Positions 16,245 to 32,784 of a stretch of 34,903 nt of DNA are shown here, piece by piece. Position numbers and translations under genes: made by a program. Each line of letters opens with the position of its first letter. Positions within the stretch are counted from its first letter, which is position 1. The stretch lies in NCBI GenBank assembly GCA_002778785.1, contig PEZS01000013.1:167315-202217 (forward strand), given 5' to 3'. The notes below the pieces were generated by a model that saw only the letters and a program-made list of their open reading frames with translations, had not been told where the DNA came from and made no database searches. Origin of the DNA: Bdellovibrionales bacterium CG10_big_fil_rev_8_21_14_0_10_45_34 (lineage in GTDB: Bacteria; Bdellovibrionota; Bdellovibrionia; Bdellovibrionales; 1-14-0-10-45-34).

Positions 16245-17636
16245 TTAGGTTCGTTTCGAGAACTCACGGTGAATAAACTGGCGACGAAACTGAAAGATTT
16301 TTGAAATATCCTTAAAAACAAAACTCCCTGCAAAGATTCTTCCGAGAGCTCCCAGCGGAATTTTATAAACCACCTCATCGGTCAACAAGCATCCACCTGC
16401 CAAAGGCTCAAAAGTATGAGTATGAACCCATTTGGAATAGGGACCTTTAATTTGTTCGTCACAAAAGCTTTCATTGGGCGACCATTTGGCAATTTTCGTG
16501 CGCCATGACATAGGCACGCCGTGCACTTTAAGCCGATAATCAATGAGCATTCCTTCATAGACTTCACTTGCAGGCAAGTTCTCAATTTCAAAGTTTAAAG
16601 TAGGTGGCGTAATCTTTTCGAGGTTACGTGCATCCGCAAAGAACGGAAAGACTTCATCGACCGTGCGGTCAACCCATTGCTCAAAAACCACTTTCCGCTG
16701 GCCGCCCTGAAAGTCACTCAGCATTTCGTTGAAGTAAACCCCGAGATTGCTATCACGAAACGAGAAACCTGCCTCTTGTAACCTCATTGGAACAACTTTT
16801 TGAGACTGCAGTAGCAGCTGTGCTCGATCTCCAAGTACGACTTTCAAAGCCAACTCCGGCGCCGGCGGCATAAAAGTGCGAAGTCCAAGACTCGTATTGA
16901 GAACCTCTGTGAATTCTCTATTGGTCACTGCGGACGGGCTCACACCGTTATAAACCCCGAATGCCGCCTCGTTCTCTATTGCTGTTACGTATATCGAAAC
17001 GAGATCTCTCCGTGATACCCAGCTCATCCACTGCAGGCCACTACCAAGAGCACTGCCCACTCCTTTGCGGAAGATGGGTAGCATTTCCTCTAGCGCCCCG
17101 CCGGTAAGATCAAGAACAATTCCCGTGCGCACGGCCACTTTTCTCAGCGAAGAATTAAAAAGGAAACCATCAAAAAGTGCGGCTTCCCACTCTTTACAAA
17201 CGTCAGCTAGAAATCCCGTTCCGAGCCCCGATTGCTCATCAAGCGTTTCATCACCGCGATCTCCGTAAATTCCTATGGCCGAAGACGAAACGACTGCTTT
17301 CAAAGTATCCGCGCAGTATTGAGAGGCGACGTCGGCAATCAGCTTGAGAGTGTCGATCCTACTCTGCCGAATCCTTTTCTTCTGCTTATCCGTCCACTTT
17401 GCTGACGCGATCGACTCCCCCATAAGATGAACGATGGCATCAACTCCAACAAACGCCTCATGAGGAGGATTCTCATTGAGGTTGCTCCATTTATAGAAAT
17501 TAGCTTTGAAAGAAGACTCAAGCCTTGCTTTGACCGGATCGCGAGTTAGCGCATTGATCGAGTGTCCGCGTCGGCAAAGTTCTTGGCAAAGTTTTTGCCC
17601 CAAAAAACCGGTGGCACCTGTTACTAAAATTTTCAT
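16245..17636 (-). CDS. TIGR01777-type epimerase fused to SRPBCC domain
   Basis: The N-terminal 310 residues form an NAD(P)-dependent SDR epimerase of the YfcH/TIGR01777 type. It has the dinucleotide motif GATGFLG (7-13), HLMGESIASAKWTDKQKKRI (70-89), SSSAIGIYGDRG (117-128) and the C-terminal DUF1731-like segment ending in RLQEAGFSFRD. From about residue 316 a second domain begins (VVFEQWVDRTVDEVFPFFAD), with the pattern of an SRPBCC/polyketide-cyclase lipid-binding fold. The start is the ATG at 17636, where ggaaaggg gives a ribosome site; the frame extends ten codons further. Glutathione peroxidase lies 42 bp upstream on the same strand. The substrate is unknown. Confidence 0.9.
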   Translation of the reverse strand: MKILVTGATGFLGQKLCQELCRRGHSINALTRDPVKARLESSFKANFYKWSNLNENPPHEAFVGVDAIVHLMGESIASAKWTDKQKKRIRQSRIDTLKLIADVASQYCADTLKAVVSSSAIGIYGDRGDETLDEQSGLGTGFLADVCKEWEAALFDGFLFNSSLRKVAVRTGIVLDLTGGALEEMLPIFRKGVGSALGSGLQWMSWVSRRDLVSIYVTAIENEAAFGVYNGVSPSAVTNREFTEVLNTSLGLRTFMPPAPELALKVVLGDRAQLLLQSQKVVPMRLQEAGFSFRDSNLGVYFNEMLSDFQGGQRKVVFEQWVDRTVDEVFPFFADARNLEKITPPTLNFEIENLPASEVYEGMLIDYRLKVHGVPMSWRTKIAKWSPNESFCDEQIKGPYSKWVHTHTFEPLAGGCLLTDEVVYKIPLGALGRIFAGSFVFKDISKIFQFRRQFIHREFSKRT

Positions 17637-17678
17637 GGTGAAGTTTCCCTTTCCATCATTTGGCAATGTACAAATCCT

Positions 17679-18230
17679 TCACGTCTGCGCCAAAAGCTCC
17701 TCAATCTTGTTTATCAGTCGTTTGTCATATGGCTTTACCCAGCTACGAGCGCGAGCCACTGGCAAATTGTTTTTGTCGATGAGAAACTTTTCGAAGTTCC
17801 AGAGCACTTCTCCTGAAAGGGCTGAACCACTCTTTACGGTCAAATACTTGTAAACTTCTTGTTTGTTCCTTCCTCTGACGTGATCTTTCTGAAGGAGGGG
17901 AAAGCGAACCTGAAACTGCGCTTCACAAAATTTGCCGATCTCTTCACTGTCACCTGGCTCCTGCTTGCCGAAATCATTTGATGGGAAGCCAATAACAGCA
18001 AGACCCTTCGGACCGTAATCAGCAGAAAGTTTTTGTAAGTCTTTTAGCTGGGGCGTGAAACCACAAAGAGAGGCCGTGTTAACTATTAGCTTAACTCTAC
18101 CTTCAAGCTCGGACCATTGAACCTTCTTGCCCGACAGAAGCGTCAGCTCCAGATCAGCTGGTATTGCCTGCCCCTCTTTGTTTTTTGCGGTCTGCCAACC
18201 CTTAAGTGTGTTAATCCACTTGGTGATCAT
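17679..18230 (-). CDS. Glutathione peroxidase family protein
   Basis: The enzyme reduces peroxides using glutathione or, more often in bacteria, thioredoxin. The catalytic cysteine is Cys56 in NTASLCGFTPQ, the tetrad glutamine is Gln90 in FGKQEPG, and the tetrad Trp and Asn sit in WNFEKFLID. The family signature GFPCNQFG reads GFPSNDFG here, so one of the cysteines often used as resolving residue is absent at that place. At 183 residues the length is normal. There is no signal peptide, so it is probably cytoplasmic. The ATG follows a clear ggag. It is probably co-transcribed with the downstream epimerase-SRPBCC gene and divergent from the GbsR-like regulator. Confidence 0.93.
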   Translation of the reverse strand: MITKWINTLKGWQTAKNKEGQAIPADLELTLLSGKKVQWSELEGRVKLIVNTASLCGFTPQLKDLQKLSADYGPKGLAVIGFPSNDFGKQEPGDSEEIGKFCEAQFQVRFPLLQKDHVRGRNKQEVYKYLTVKSGSALSGEVLWNFEKFLIDKNNLPVARARSWVKPYDKRLINKIEELLAQT

Positions 18231-27490: not shown

Positions 27491-29911
27491 TTAACGAATT
27501 CGCGCTTGGAACTGCTGACTCACTGAATCAATAAGCTCTGTTTGAAGCTTTTGAAGCTCAGCATCAGAGAGCGTCGCCTCCTGGTTTTGGATTTTCATCC
27601 TGAAACCTACCGATTTGATACCACTCTCAAGGTCTCCACCCTCAAAAACATCAAAAATTCGCACACCTCGCCCGAGCGTTCCTAGCTTATCTTCAATGAA
27701 CCGGGATATTTCACCAACGGGCTGAGAGGCAGGCACCAAAAATGCGAGATCTCTTTCGACTATCGGGTACTTCGATAAAGGCTTCGGACGATCAATTTTG
27801 CGGGGCCTGCTGAGTAGTTCGGTCACATCCAGCTCGAAGGCACAGGCTTGGGTGCGGATTTTATGACTCTCTAAAAATTCTGGCGATAAACTACCAACGC
27901 CCCCAAGCAGCGATTGATCTAGTTCCACTCTTGCTGCTTGATAGGGATGAAAAATATTCGGGGCGCTGCTTTGCAAAAGACTCAGTTTCACTCCCGTAAA
28001 TCTTTGCAAAACCACTTCTAAAATCTTTAAGAGATCTAAGACTTGAGGCGACTGCGTTTTCCAAAGTGGATCAACGCTACCCCACATAACTCCTGCGAGG
28101 CGAATAGACTCACAGTACTCCTTTTGAGCCGTGTAAAAAACCGGACCAATCTCATAAAGCGCGCCTTCCTGCGATCCATAGTGAAAGTTGTTCTTTAAGT
28201 TACTCAGCAGCCCCGGTAGTAACGACACACGCATGACATCAAGATCTTCGTTGATTGGATTCTTAATAGCCACTGCAGCACCTTGTGGAGCCAAGTGAAA
28301 AGCCTGCCATCCATCTAAGTCTCCAAGAAGCTCTGATTGCCATTTCGAAGAGACAAAATGGAAATTGATAGCTTCTTGAAAGCCCGCCGCAGACATCTCT
28401 TTCATAAGTTCCCGCTGGCGGATGAAAGTGAAATCTTCGTTTTGTGGTTCAGATAAGAAAACAGGCGTCTTCATAGGAATCTGATCGTAGCCATGCACCC
28501 GGGCCACTTCCTCGACAAGGTCCATCTCAATATTTAAATCATGGCGAAACGCTGGAGGAAGTACCGACCAAACCTTCTCTTGATCGTCGACCTCGCACCC
28601 TAGTCGTTTCAGAATTCCATTTATCGTTTCATCTCCCAAAGCTATGCCAAGCCTTTCAGCTGCCGTCTGACTAGAAAATGCTATCGCTTGCGGACGAAGT
28701 GGCTGGGGATAAATATCGTAAGGATCATCGCACACTTGCCCACCTGCTAGCTCACTCAGCAGCCCCGCCGCTCGGTTCATGGCAAGTAAAGTTGCCTCAG
28801 GATCAACGCCGCGACTGAATCGATAACAGGCATCTGTCTCTATTCCAAGCCGGCGCGAGGTTCGCCTTACTGCGGACGGCTTAAAAAATGCAGATTCGAT
28901 AAGTACATCTTGGGTTTGATCCGTTACGCCCGAATTTTTAGCCCCGATCACTCCGGCGAGCGCAATCACTCGGTCTGAATCGGCAATGACCAAATCATCT
29001 GCGACCAAACTCAGCTCCGTACCATCAAAGCTCACCATCTTTTCGTTTGCTTCTGCTCGCCTCACTCGAATTTGTGCTTTTGCAATCGCATTAAGATCAA
29101 ACGCATGTAGTGGTTGACCCAGCTCCAGCATCACATAGTTTGTTATGTCTACTACATTGTTGATCGAGTTAACGCCTACAGACTCTAAGGCACGTCTTAA
29201 CCACTGTGGGCTTGGTGCTACCTTTATGTCCTTAACTACAACTGCGCTGTACCTGGGACACAAATCCGTTTCAAGAACTTGAAGATCAATCAACTGCCGA
29301 GTCGAATCCGAAATAACTGGAACTGACTCAATCGGAAATTCTGCCTTAACGCCAGTCAATGCTGCAATTTCACGAGCAAGCCCGAAATGACTTAAGCAAT
29401 CTGCTCGGTTCGGCGTCACTTTAAGTTCAAAAAACACATCATCAAGGCCCAGGACATTAACAATTGGCTCTCCTGGCTTTGTCTCTTTTGGTAAGATAAG
29501 AATGCCCTCATTATCCGCCGAAAGCCCAAGCTCCTTCGCTGAGCAAAGCATCCCGTTAGATTCCACTGCTCTGATTTTGCTGGCTGTAATTTCGAAGTCG
29601 CCCGGCAAAATTGCTCCCGGCAATGCCACTACGACAGCATCGCCCTCCTGATGATTTCTAGCGCCGCAGACAATTTGGTGTTCACGGCCATCTCCGGTTG
29701 ATACAGAACAAACCGATAGCCTGTCTGCATCTGGATGTTGAGACTTCTTCGAAACAACGCCGCTGACAACATTTTTAAACTGCTGCCGCTGATTGCTCAC
29801 CGACTCCACTTCTAGTCCTGCTTGTGTGAGCACGTCAGCAAGCTTTTCTGGCTTGGTTTTATACGATGAAACGTCTACGTACTTTGAAATCCAGTTGAGC
29901 GAAATCTTCAT
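27491..29911 (-). CDS. pheT: Phenylalanine-tRNA ligase beta subunit
   Basis: PheT with PheS charges tRNA-Phe. The 806-residue protein is full length. Domains in order are the N-terminal tRNA-binding (OB) domain (VVSGVVSKKSQHPDADRLSV, about 40-150), the B3/B4 editing region (about 210-390, with SVGVNSINNVVDITNYVMLE), the B5 domain (about 395-475), the catalytic-like core (about 485-695) and the FDX-ACB anticodon-binding domain at the end (SKYPIVERDLAFLVP, about 710-805). The ATG overlaps the pheS stop as ATGA, so the subunits are translationally coupled. ihfA follows after 169 bp. Confidence 0.97.
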   Translation of the reverse strand: MKISLNWISKYVDVSSYKTKPEKLADVLTQAGLEVESVSNQRQQFKNVVSGVVSKKSQHPDADRLSVCSVSTGDGREHQIVCGARNHQEGDAVVVALPGAILPGDFEITASKIRAVESNGMLCSAKELGLSADNEGILILPKETKPGEPIVNVLGLDDVFFELKVTPNRADCLSHFGLAREIAALTGVKAEFPIESVPVISDSTRQLIDLQVLETDLCPRYSAVVVKDIKVAPSPQWLRRALESVGVNSINNVVDITNYVMLELGQPLHAFDLNAIAKAQIRVRRAEANEKMVSFDGTELSLVADDLVIADSDRVIALAGVIGAKNSGVTDQTQDVLIESAFFKPSAVRRTSRRLGIETDACYRFSRGVDPEATLLAMNRAAGLLSELAGGQVCDDPYDIYPQPLRPQAIAFSSQTAAERLGIALGDETINGILKRLGCEVDDQEKVWSVLPPAFRHDLNIEMDLVEEVARVHGYDQIPMKTPVFLSEPQNEDFTFIRQRELMKEMSAAGFQEAINFHFVSSKWQSELLGDLDGWQAFHLAPQGAAVAIKNPINEDLDVMRVSLLPGLLSNLKNNFHYGSQEGALYEIGPVFYTAQKEYCESIRLAGVMWGSVDPLWKTQSPQVLDLLKILEVVLQRFTGVKLSLLQSSAPNIFHPYQAARVELDQSLLGGVGSLSPEFLESHKIRTQACAFELDVTELLSRPRKIDRPKPLSKYPIVERDLAFLVPASQPVGEISRFIEDKLGTLGRGVRIFDVFEGGDLESGIKSVGFRMKIQNQEATLSDAELQKLQTELIDSVSQQFQARIR

Positions 29912-30927
29912 GGGAACTGCTCCAAAAACCGAACATCATTGTCAAAGAAGAGCCGGATATCTTGAACACCGTATTTCACAATGGTTAGGCGCTCGATGCC
30001 CATTCCAAACGCCAAACCTTGATATTCGTTGGGATCTACTTTTGCTGCTGAAAGCACATTTGGATGAACAAGACCACAGCCTGCCATCTCGATCCATCCT
30101 GTGCCAGAGCACATGCGACAACCTTTTTCTTCACAAAGGGGGCACGAGCAATCAACTTCTGCGGAGGGCTCTGTAAACGGAAAAAAGCTAGGACGAAATC
30201 TCGTCTTTACATTTGGACCAAAAAAATGGCGATTAAAGTAATCCAGTAAGCCCTTTAAATCAGCCATCGAAACTTTCTTATCCACCCAAAGGCCTTCTAG
30301 CTGGTGGAACATCGGGGAGTGCGAGATATCGCTGTCGCAGCGAAAAACTGTCCCCGGCCCGAGAACCCGAAGCGGAACACCCTCAGTCTCCATCGCACGA
30401 ATTTGGATCGGACTAGTCTGCGTTCGAAGCACGTGCGAATCATCTATATAGAACGTATCTTGCATGTCGCGAGCAGGATGATCTTTGGGAATGTTAAGAG
30501 CCTCAAAATTATAGTTGTCTTTTTCGATGATTGGACCGCGGCGAACAGAAAAACCAAGCTTTGAAAAAATCCCAACGATCTCGTCATAAACCCTACGAAG
30601 CGGATGCTGACTTCCTTTTAGACGATGTTGACCGGGCAGGGTCATATCTAAACGGTCTGATTTCAGCTTAATCTCAAGTTCTGCCTTCTTGATGGTCTCA
30701 AATCTTTGCGCGAAGTGCCCTTCAAGGCGAACCTTCACTTCGTTGATCCGAGCGCCCACCTGAGGGCGTTCAGCTGGGTCTACGTCTTTGAGGCCCTTCA
30801 TGAGTTCGGAGATTGGCCCCTGTTTACCCATGAATTTTGCCTTCAACTGAGACCAATCATTGGCAGTACTGACCTTCTCTAGTTCCTGATGAGCTGCTGA
30901 CTCGATTTCTTTAAGTTTTTCATTCAT
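29908..30927 (-). CDS. pheS: Phenylalanine-tRNA ligase alpha subunit
   Basis: The catalytic subunit carries the class II motifs: motif 2 in GTVFRCDSDISHSPMFHQLE and motif 3 in GLAFGMGIERLTIVKYGV. It also has the family's cysteine-containing insert (VDCSCPLCEEKGCRMCSGTG). The start is placed at the ATG at 30927 (MNEKLKEIES), because this gives 339 residues, the normal PheS length, beginning with the usual coiled-coil region. The frame is open upstream to an ATG at 31110, but those 61 extra residues have no family match and would overlap the rsmG start on the other strand. The ribosome site (aggg) is short-spaced, so the start is not certain. Confidence 0.93.
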   Translation of the reverse strand: MNEKLKEIESAAHQELEKVSTANDWSQLKAKFMGKQGPISELMKGLKDVDPAERPQVGARINEVKVRLEGHFAQRFETIKKAELEIKLKSDRLDMTLPGQHRLKGSQHPLRRVYDEIVGIFSKLGFSVRRGPIIEKDNYNFEALNIPKDHPARDMQDTFYIDDSHVLRTQTSPIQIRAMETEGVPLRVLGPGTVFRCDSDISHSPMFHQLEGLWVDKKVSMADLKGLLDYFNRHFFGPNVKTRFRPSFFPFTEPSAEVDCSCPLCEEKGCRMCSGTGWIEMAGCGLVHPNVLSAAKVDPNEYQGLAFGMGIERLTIVKYGVQDIRLFFDNDVRFLEQFP

Positions 30928-31101
30928 ATCCCTGAGATTATTGAATGATTTTCTATCTGTTTTCAAATACAATCTGCCCATTAATTCGAGAGCTAGGGTT
31001 TTTGCTAAGTTCTGCTGCGAAAGCACAGATGCCAGCTCTCGTGGATTGTTTTTTAGCCAGAGTCGATAAGACTGGCCCAACTCTTGAACTAGATTTTGAA
31101 A

Positions 31102-31884
31102 ATGGCCCATCGAAACAAACAGAATTATTCAGCCTATAGCCAAAAGCGCGTGAAAACTGAGCACCAAAAGCACGGGAAGCACCGCAGGGCTCAGGAGCGG
31201 TACTCCCTTGAGGAATCTCAAGATAGGCTCAGAGATCTACTCGGAAGGCATGGCTGCGAGTGGGTGAGCTCCTCAGCTTTGAAACAACTGGCGCTTTTTT
31301 ACCGGCTACTCGTATCAGGGCAGGACAAGCAGAACTTCACGCGTCTCCTCACTATGAAAGACATTGCCATTAAACACTTTATCGACTCTTTGTTATTGGT
31401 CAGTTTGTTAAGAGAAGGAAGAGGTGTTGAGAGTCCTCTACTGGATCTCGGAACGGGGCCAGGGTTTCCGGGAATTCCCATTGCGATTGCAGAGCCGGAT
31501 TCAAAGATTATGCTCGCCGAAGGGGTCCAAAAACGCGTTGAGTTTTTAAAGATAGTACGTGACAAACTCGAACTCAAGAATGTCGAGATTTTTGGCCGCA
31601 ATATTGACGAAACGTTTGAGTATCCAGTGAGCTCTGTCGTGACCCGCGCGGTTGAAGAAGCCAAAAACACGCTAAGCAACGTATCTTCATGTCTTAAGGT
31701 TGGGGGTTATGTTTACCTAATGAAGGGTCCTCAGTTTAAAGAAGAAATTAAGAGATTTGAGAGTGGCCCGATGGTTAATCAGTTTCAGTTTGTAAAAGTG
31801 ATTGAGTACGATATTCCGAAAACGCCTCACAAAAGATCTTTGCTCGTCTTTCATAAGTTTGCACAAAACATTGAGGCAGTGTGA
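31102..31884 (+). CDS. rsmG: 16S rRNA m7G527 methyltransferase
   Basis: RsmG methylates G527 of 16S rRNA with S-adenosylmethionine. The SAM site is LLDLGTGPGFPGIPIAIAEP, with following motifs AEGVQKRVEFLKIV, VVTRAVEEAKN and VGGYVYLMKGPQF. The ATG at 31102 gives 260 residues, including a basic N-terminal extension of about 33 residues before the usual start region (SLEESQDRLRDLL). A TTG two codons earlier or an internal start is possible. The stop (31882-31884) overlaps a GTG that opens the first of two mini-ORFs leading into the TrmH/SpoU gene. It is divergent from pheS. Confidence 0.93.
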   Translation: MAHRNKQNYSAYSQKRVKTEHQKHGKHRRAQERYSLEESQDRLRDLLGRHGCEWVSSSALKQLALFYRLLVSGQDKQNFTRLLTMKDIAIKHFIDSLLLVSLLREGRGVESPLLDLGTGPGFPGIPIAIAEPDSKIMLAEGVQKRVEFLKIVRDKLELKNVEIFGRNIDETFEYPVSSVVTRAVEEAKNTLSNVSSCLKVGGYVYLMKGPQFKEEIKRFESGPMVNQFQFVKVIEYDIPKTPHKRSLLVFHKFAQNIEAV

Positions 31885-31934
31885 CTGAATTTGTTAAACG
31901 GATCGAAAGCCGGCAAAGCAAAGGGACCGCATGA
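31881..31934 (+). CDS. Coupled mini-ORF 1, copy of the SpoU gene start
   Basis: A 17-codon frame from GTG (overlapping the rsmG stop) encodes VTEFVKRIESRQSKGTA and ends in TGA overlapping the next ATG. It corresponds to the N-terminus of the downstream SpoU methyltransferase (MNASTKKIESRQNAQFK), in a 50-bp repeat. Whether it is translated is unknown. Confidence 0.55.
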   Translation: MTEFVKRIESRQSKGTA

Positions 31935-31984
31935 CCGCACCTGGTAAGAAGATCGAGGGCCAGCGAAGCAAGGGGCCAGCATGA
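31931..31984 (+). CDS. Coupled mini-ORF 2, copy of the SpoU gene start
   Basis: A 17-codon frame (MTAPGKKIEGQRSKGPA) begins at an ATG overlapping the TGA of mini-ORF 1 and ends in a TGA overlapping the ATG of the methyltransferase gene. The aaggg-type motif at 31921-31925 could serve as its ribosome site. Translation is not shown. Confidence 0.55.
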   Translation: MTAPGKKIEGQRSKGPA

Positions 31985-32784
31985 ACGCATCGACTAAAAA
32001 AATCGAGAGCCGGCAAAACGCCCAGTTTAAATACTGGCGATCACTGACGGAAGGCCGCGGTCTAAAAAAGGGCGAACACTATTTGGTGGCTGGCTCTAAG
32101 TTAGTTAACGAATATCTCGCGAGTGATAGCGAAAACGTACGAGCTATAATTGGCTCAAGCGAATGCGGCGCAAGTTTGACTGACGAAAGCGAGTCTTTTC
32201 TTGCTCACGATTTTTTTGATCTTTCCAGTTCTCTATTTGAAGAACTTGATGTCTTGGGAGCTCGCTTCCCCCTTCTGCTCGTTTCTCAGTCTCCCCTTCA
32301 TCAGATAGAAGAACTGAGCAAATATACGAGTAACGAGAATTGCCTTGTGTTACCGCTGAGTGATCCGAGTAACTTGGGTGCTTGCTTGCGCTCCGCGAAG
32401 GCCTTTGGCTTTAAGAATATCGTTTTGTGTGCAGAGTCTGCCAATCCTTTTTTGCCTAAGTGTGTTCGCACTCTTGCTAGCCCACTATTTGGTTTTCGCT
32501 TTTTCCAAGGCGGAAGTTTCTCAACCATTCTGGGTGAACTCGACGGAGAGGTTTTATGCTTAGACCTTGACGGAGAACCTCTTCAAGATGCGGCTTCAAA
32601 CTTAACGGGACCCGTTACTTTGGTTGTTGGTGAAGAAGGAAAGGGATTTGAAAAATGGCAACAATGCGCCGAACAACTCCTTATCAGAAAAGTAAAGATA
32701 GCACACAATTCATCTGTAGAATCATTGAATGCTACCGTCGCCGTTTCTATCGCTCTATGGGAGATCTCTAAGAGACTAAATTAG
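31981..32784 (+). CDS. TrmH/SpoU-family RNA 2'-O-methyltransferase
   Basis: SpoU enzymes use S-adenosylmethionine to methylate ribose in rRNA or tRNA and have a knotted fold. The N-terminal substrate domain begins with KKIESRQNAQFKYWRSL. The catalytic domain has motif 1 (SDPSNLGACLRSAKAFGF, around residue 130), motif 2 (VTLVVGEEGKGFE) and motif 3 (HNSSVESLNATVAVSIALWE). At 267 residues it is full length. The target nucleotide is not predictable. An aagggg ribosome site (31970-31975) precedes the ATG, which overlaps the TGA of mini-ORF 2. It is probably co-transcribed with rsmG, forming a small RNA-modification unit. Confidence 0.92.
   Translation: MNASTKKIESRQNAQFKYWRSLTEGRGLKKGEHYLVAGSKLVNEYLASDSENVRAIIGSSECGASLTDESESFLAHDFFDLSSSLFEELDVLGARFPLLLVSQSPLHQIEELSKYTSNENCLVLPLSDPSNLGACLRSAKAFGFKNIVLCAESANPFLPKCVRTLASPLFGFRFFQGGSFSTILGELDGEVLCLDLDGEPLQDAASNLTGPVTLVVGEEGKGFEKWQQCAEQLLIRKVKIAHNSSVESLNATVAVSIALWEISKRLN

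Follow-up and report, generated by a model that had tools for sequence, protein, structure and literature searches.

Gene organization of the rsmG–spoU junction

The window analyzed in this study is the whole stretch of 34,903 nt, and all coordinates are positions in it. The source genome consists of 16 contigs with a total of 3.06 Mb. Two genes on the forward strand, rsmG and spoU, are separated by two mini-ORFs, and the four features are as follows.

31105 to 31884, forward strand: rsmG (gidB), 16S rRNA m7G527 methyltransferase (NCBIfam TIGR00138, 124 bits, cut-off 99.5; Pfam GidB)
31881 to 31934, forward strand: mini-ORF 1, VTEFVKRIESRQSKGTA, whose GTG start overlaps the rsmG TGA
31931 to 31984, forward strand: mini-ORF 2, MTAPGKKIEGQRSKGPA, whose ATG overlaps the stop of mini-ORF 1 and whose own TGA overlaps the spoU ATG
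31981 to 32784, forward strand: gene of a SpoU/TrmH-family RNA 2'-O-methyltransferase of 267 aa (Pfam SpoU_methylase, 73.7 bits, cut-off 29.7)

The probable start of rsmG is the ATG at 31105, and an in-frame TTG is also present at 31096. The scores of the RlmB models on the spoU product were under their cut-offs. In the RsmG protein, the TIGR00138 match begins at residue 57; the N-terminal stretch of approximately 50 residues ahead of it (31105-31290) aligns with several relatives in the order. On the reverse strand, a pheS-like ORF (29908-31110, 400 aa as listed) has its start at 31110 and thus overlaps the 5' end of rsmG. A sequence more typical of the N-terminus of PheS (MNEKLKEIES...) follows about 62 codons into this ORF. 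The true pheS start is probably near 30925, and this would leave room for a divergent promoter region.

Each mini-ORF has 17 codons and neither holds an internal stop; the two peptides given in the earlier note agreed with our translations letter by letter. The stop/start overlaps described there were also found: the rsmG stop overlaps GTGA at 31881, and the two mini-ORF stops overlap ATGA at 31931 and 31981. Every step from rsmG to spoU is thus an RTGA between co-directional ORFs, which is the −4 overlap. AAGGG-like motifs lie 5 nt upstream of both ATG starts, as had been claimed. The 16S rRNA of this genome ends in ...GGATCACCTCCTTT, and the duplex energies with this tail at the three starts were −5.6, −5.2, and −6.6 kcal/mol, respectively, compared with a gene median of −4.5 kcal/mol. 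Such energies were matched by 8-17% of random positions, and the value of spoU (−6.6 kcal/mol) surpassed those of approximately 71% of genes. The SD-like pairing is moderate at all three starts. Since an SD-like site precedes every one of them, spoU could also initiate independently.

A three-copy repeat and its register

Three tandem copies of 50 nt begin at 31881, 31931, and 31981, exactly where the earlier note had placed them. The identities were 34/50 between copies 1 and 2, 29/50 between copies 2 and 3, and 27/50 between copies 1 and 3. The best 50-nt self-match was 37, while the maximum in 1000 Markov-shuffled regions was 30, and the three-copy score was 75 against a shuffled maximum of 59 (1000 shuffles). 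The three-copy repeat with its RTGA chain is far beyond chance. Despite the identities of 54-68% between the copies, the two 50-nt periods are exact and free of indels.

The boundaries of the repeat were examined by self-comparison. The best segment at lag 50 was 31864-31969 (106 nt), and the best segment at lag 100 was 31864-31919 (56 nt); three 50-nt units predict 100 nt and 50 nt, respectively. Therefore, the similarity begins in the rsmG tail and ends near 32019. The copies claimed for 31881-32030 are present, but their extent had to be corrected: the first GTG lies 11-17 nt downstream of the point where the similarity begins, and the units span about 31864/31870-32019. In this register, the units are as follows.

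31864 to 31919, forward strand: unit 1, with the last 4-6 rsmG codons including GAGG, the GTGA overlap, and the first copied spoU codons (from the lag-50 and lag-100 segments)
31920 to 31969, forward strand: unit 2, with 31/50 matches to unit 1 and 36/50 to unit 3
31970 to 32019, forward strand: unit 3, with the SD-like AAGGGG, the ATGA, and the real first 13 spoU codons; the SpoU family motif IxSxxN lies here

At the 3' ends of copies 1 and 2, the final 11 nt align with the rsmG tail, including GAGG, and do not resemble spoU codons 14-17; this rsmG-tail portion is only weakly similar (5-6 matches in 11 nt). From this geometry and weak similarity, we believe that the copied segment is probably the rsmG–spoU junction itself, that is, the rsmG tail with its SD-like GAGG, the stop/start overlap, and about 13 spoU codons. 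The identities, the shuffles, and the lag-50 and lag-100 segments agree with the earlier view of an old duplication with an unbroken stop/start chain. Most likely, the triplication is old-looking and lineage-specific and spans a coupled rsmG–spoU junction.

The junction in related genomes

rsmG and spoU adjoin in many members of the order, and 72 distinct rsmG–spoU junctions from two collections were compared. A direct 4-nt overlap of the two genes was found in 28 of the 72 junctions, and in 28 more a possible start lies within the end of rsmG, at other overlap distances. In 11 junctions the start lies within 30 nt after rsmG, so that in 67/72 a possible start is located at most 30 nt past the rsmG stop; in the other 5, including that of the window, it lies farther. 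Because of the 28 direct overlaps and the 28 starts inside rsmG, the translational coupling of the two genes is probably an ancestral trait. The overlap is thus also present in relatives, while the mini-ORF chain is not shared. Tandem copies stood out at the junction of the window only (best 40-nt self-match 31, next 26, among the 72 junctions). In two relatives, L044 and L032, the two genes are separated by 82-95 nt, and neither a repeat nor a mini-ORF chain was found in these long gaps, which indicates that these relatives can do without the tight junction.

The earlier note had suggested aligning the junction in related genomes, and had named a single copy in relatives, with no preserved overlaps, as a finding against its reading. 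The relatives did show a single junction, a result that applies to the family level and above. The genome is the sole member of its family among the genomes compared, and no close relative was found among 141 genomes of the order. Contig scans added distant relatives at most. The best SpoU identity was 42%, and matches at the DNA level in the class were confined to short, conserved parts of the rsmG gene.

Genome background

Of 552 co-directional pairs in a 1.22-Mb portion of the genome, 91 showed a direct 4-nt overlap. Among 212 pairs, only that of the window contained two linked mini-ORFs with 10 codons or more, with 0.08 expected from shuffled gaps. The same 1.22 Mb included 19 other places with comparable short tandem repeats, and in eight of these the period is not a multiple of 3. 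Duplication by itself is therefore not a rare event. A profile search of the whole genome yielded no dispersed copies of the unit, only the three local ones; the next match had 14.2 bits (E 0.18). Among 139 genomes of the order, one weak match was found elsewhere, on a contig other than that carrying spoU in that genome.

Other mini-ORF chains in the genome showed no clear likeness to the ORF that follows them. One of them lies in the window on the reverse strand (17633-17682). The ORF at 17679-18230 on this strand ends in GTGA and is followed by two mini-ORFs of 8 codons, VKDLYIAK and MMERETSP, and an ATGA connects the chain to a gene that begins with MKILVTGATGFLGQ. These mini-ORFs are not clearly alike or like the gene start (11/23 and 9/23), and this chain may be a product of chance.

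Selection or mechanical preservation

The earlier note attributed the kept starts, stops, and K-K/R-I-E core to selection. These features are present, and they can mostly be explained by the duplication and its period. When an RTGA opens a 50-nt unit, the next TGA falls 51 nt past the start codon, that is, after exactly 17 codons. Such a chain results whenever a junction is duplicated at a period of 2 mod 3, provided that no in-frame stop comes earlier. Because this period sets the stops automatically, the retention of starts and stops is mostly mechanical and does not count as separate evidence for selection.

The substitutions did not bear out selection on the copies. The differences between copies 1 and 2 are spread evenly over the codon positions (5/6/5). 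When the same substitutions were placed at random, an equal or better peptide similarity was obtained with P = 0.50, 0.20, and 0.63, so no purifying selection on the mini-peptides was seen among the three copies. The stop/start chain stayed intact in 11-27% of neutral-drift runs, which were substitution-only simulations at matching divergence; indels would lower this value. No unusual RNA structure was found at the junction (fold z = +0.79).

Discussion

Studies have shown that −4 overlapping gene pairs are coupled by termination-reinitiation (Huber 2019, PMC6728339; Huber 2023, PMC10666635). The rsmG–spoU locus shares with them the RTGA overlaps between co-directional ORFs and the SD-like motifs, and 28 of the 72 junctions above are of this kind. 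Unlike these pairs, the overlap here is tandemly triplicated, and two 17-codon mini-ORFs lie between the genes. The triplicated junction is a variant of known translational coupling.

In this study, we consider it fairly probable that an ancestral coupled junction was triplicated, and that the resulting chain passes ribosomes on by termination-reinitiation. The ancestral pair would have been coupled via a 4-nt RTGA overlap. The 50-nt junction segment, with the rsmG tail and its SD-like motif, the RTGA, and about 13 spoU codons, would then have been tandemly duplicated to give three copies. Since the period of 2 mod 3 places the next RTGA 17 codons after each start, the chain from rsmG through mini-ORF 1 and mini-ORF 2 to spoU would form by itself. 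A ribosome that finishes rsmG could restart at the GTG, then at the next ATG, and finally at the spoU ATG. Some ribosomes would be lost at each step, so that spoU would be reached, perhaps at a lower dose, and the mini-peptides would most likely be by-products. The repeat, register, overlaps, frames, and uniqueness were observed directly, and the ancestral coupling and the order of the duplication events are our reconstruction.

Such a ribosome relay from rsmG to spoU is plausible from the arrangement of the sequence. In reporter experiments, coupling fades beyond about 20-40 nt and reinitiation drops sharply with distance; for coupling, the upstream gene needs to contribute no more than its last 15 nt (PMC10666635). 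Therefore, a bare gap of 96 nt should uncouple rsmG and spoU, whereas the chained mini-ORFs could keep the coupling with a loss at each step. The further proposal, that a serial relay of repeated coupled junctions with a 2 mod 3 period steps down the dose of the SpoU enzyme relative to rsmG, seems to us rather unlikely.

De novo initiation is a serious rival to the relay. The duplicated junction could be a decaying spacer, a neutral relic. In this case, the AAGGGG located 5 nt before the spoU start would serve as the SD of this gene, and only the period and chance would keep the mini-ORFs open. The strength of this SD, the absence of codon-level constraint between the copies, the survival of the chain under simulated drift, and the 19 comparable repeats elsewhere are consistent with such a relic. 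However, two exact periods without indels, stop-free mini-ORFs, and the keeping of every RTGA at 54-68% identity argue against it, and most other rsmG–spoU junctions remain tight. We regard the relic as possible but doubtful.

The mini-ORFs could also encode functional leader peptides under sequence selection, for example for signal-dependent ribosome stalling. The common K-K/R-I-E core and the resemblance to the N-terminus of the enzyme would fit this role, but the resemblance is inherited via the duplication, the peptides have changed as at random, and the RNA structure is not unusual. Leader peptides are thus very improbable.

The nearest comparison among natural repeats is with mycobacterial interspersed repetitive units (MIRUs). 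As described in PMC12548453, which cites Supply 1997, MIRUs are short repeats located at start codons, and the ORF inside them is coupled to the following gene through a −4 overlap. On that account, both have an internal ORF in −4 arrangement with a downstream gene, and this likeness is what would favor a dispersed, MIRU-like mobile unit that was inserted at the start codon and then amplified. Unlike MIRUs, which are dispersed and apparently mobile, the unit here is confined to one locus and appears to be derived from the junction, and the profile search found its three local copies alone. The mobile-unit explanation is largely refuted, and we give it hardly any credence. MIRUs are the nearest natural analogue in proposed working, not in membership.

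That −1 frameshifting at the overlaps extends the N-terminus of the enzyme by the mini-ORFs can be practically dismissed: every next ORF is in the −1 frame of the preceding one, but no canonical slippery heptamer was seen by eye, the fold z is unremarkable, and no such extension of the SpoU enzyme was found in relatives. A sequencing error masking a real N-terminal extension is unlikely, because two diverged sites, neither of them a homopolymer, would both have had to lose 1 nt in the same way.

Expression vectors and a toxin-antitoxin operon offer partial parallels to the proposed relay. In expression vectors, the bicistronic design and short ORFs for nonsense peptides (PMC12548453, PMC13255528) share with it a short upstream ORF that brings ribosomes to a gene, as proposed here; unlike them, the present arrangement is natural, has two short ORFs in series, and is fed by an upstream gene. 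A minigene in the axe-txe operon acts on translation in cis (PMC8708949) and is likewise a mini-ORF inside an operon. In contrast to the triplicated junction, it has two codons and no repeated overlap, and it belongs to a toxin-antitoxin operon.

The triplicated rsmG–spoU junction is a single lineage-specific example. Serial −4 overlaps that arose by duplication of a single junction would offer a natural setting in which to measure the loss per termination-reinitiation step. An insertion between coupled genes may leave their coupling intact when its length is 2 mod 3.
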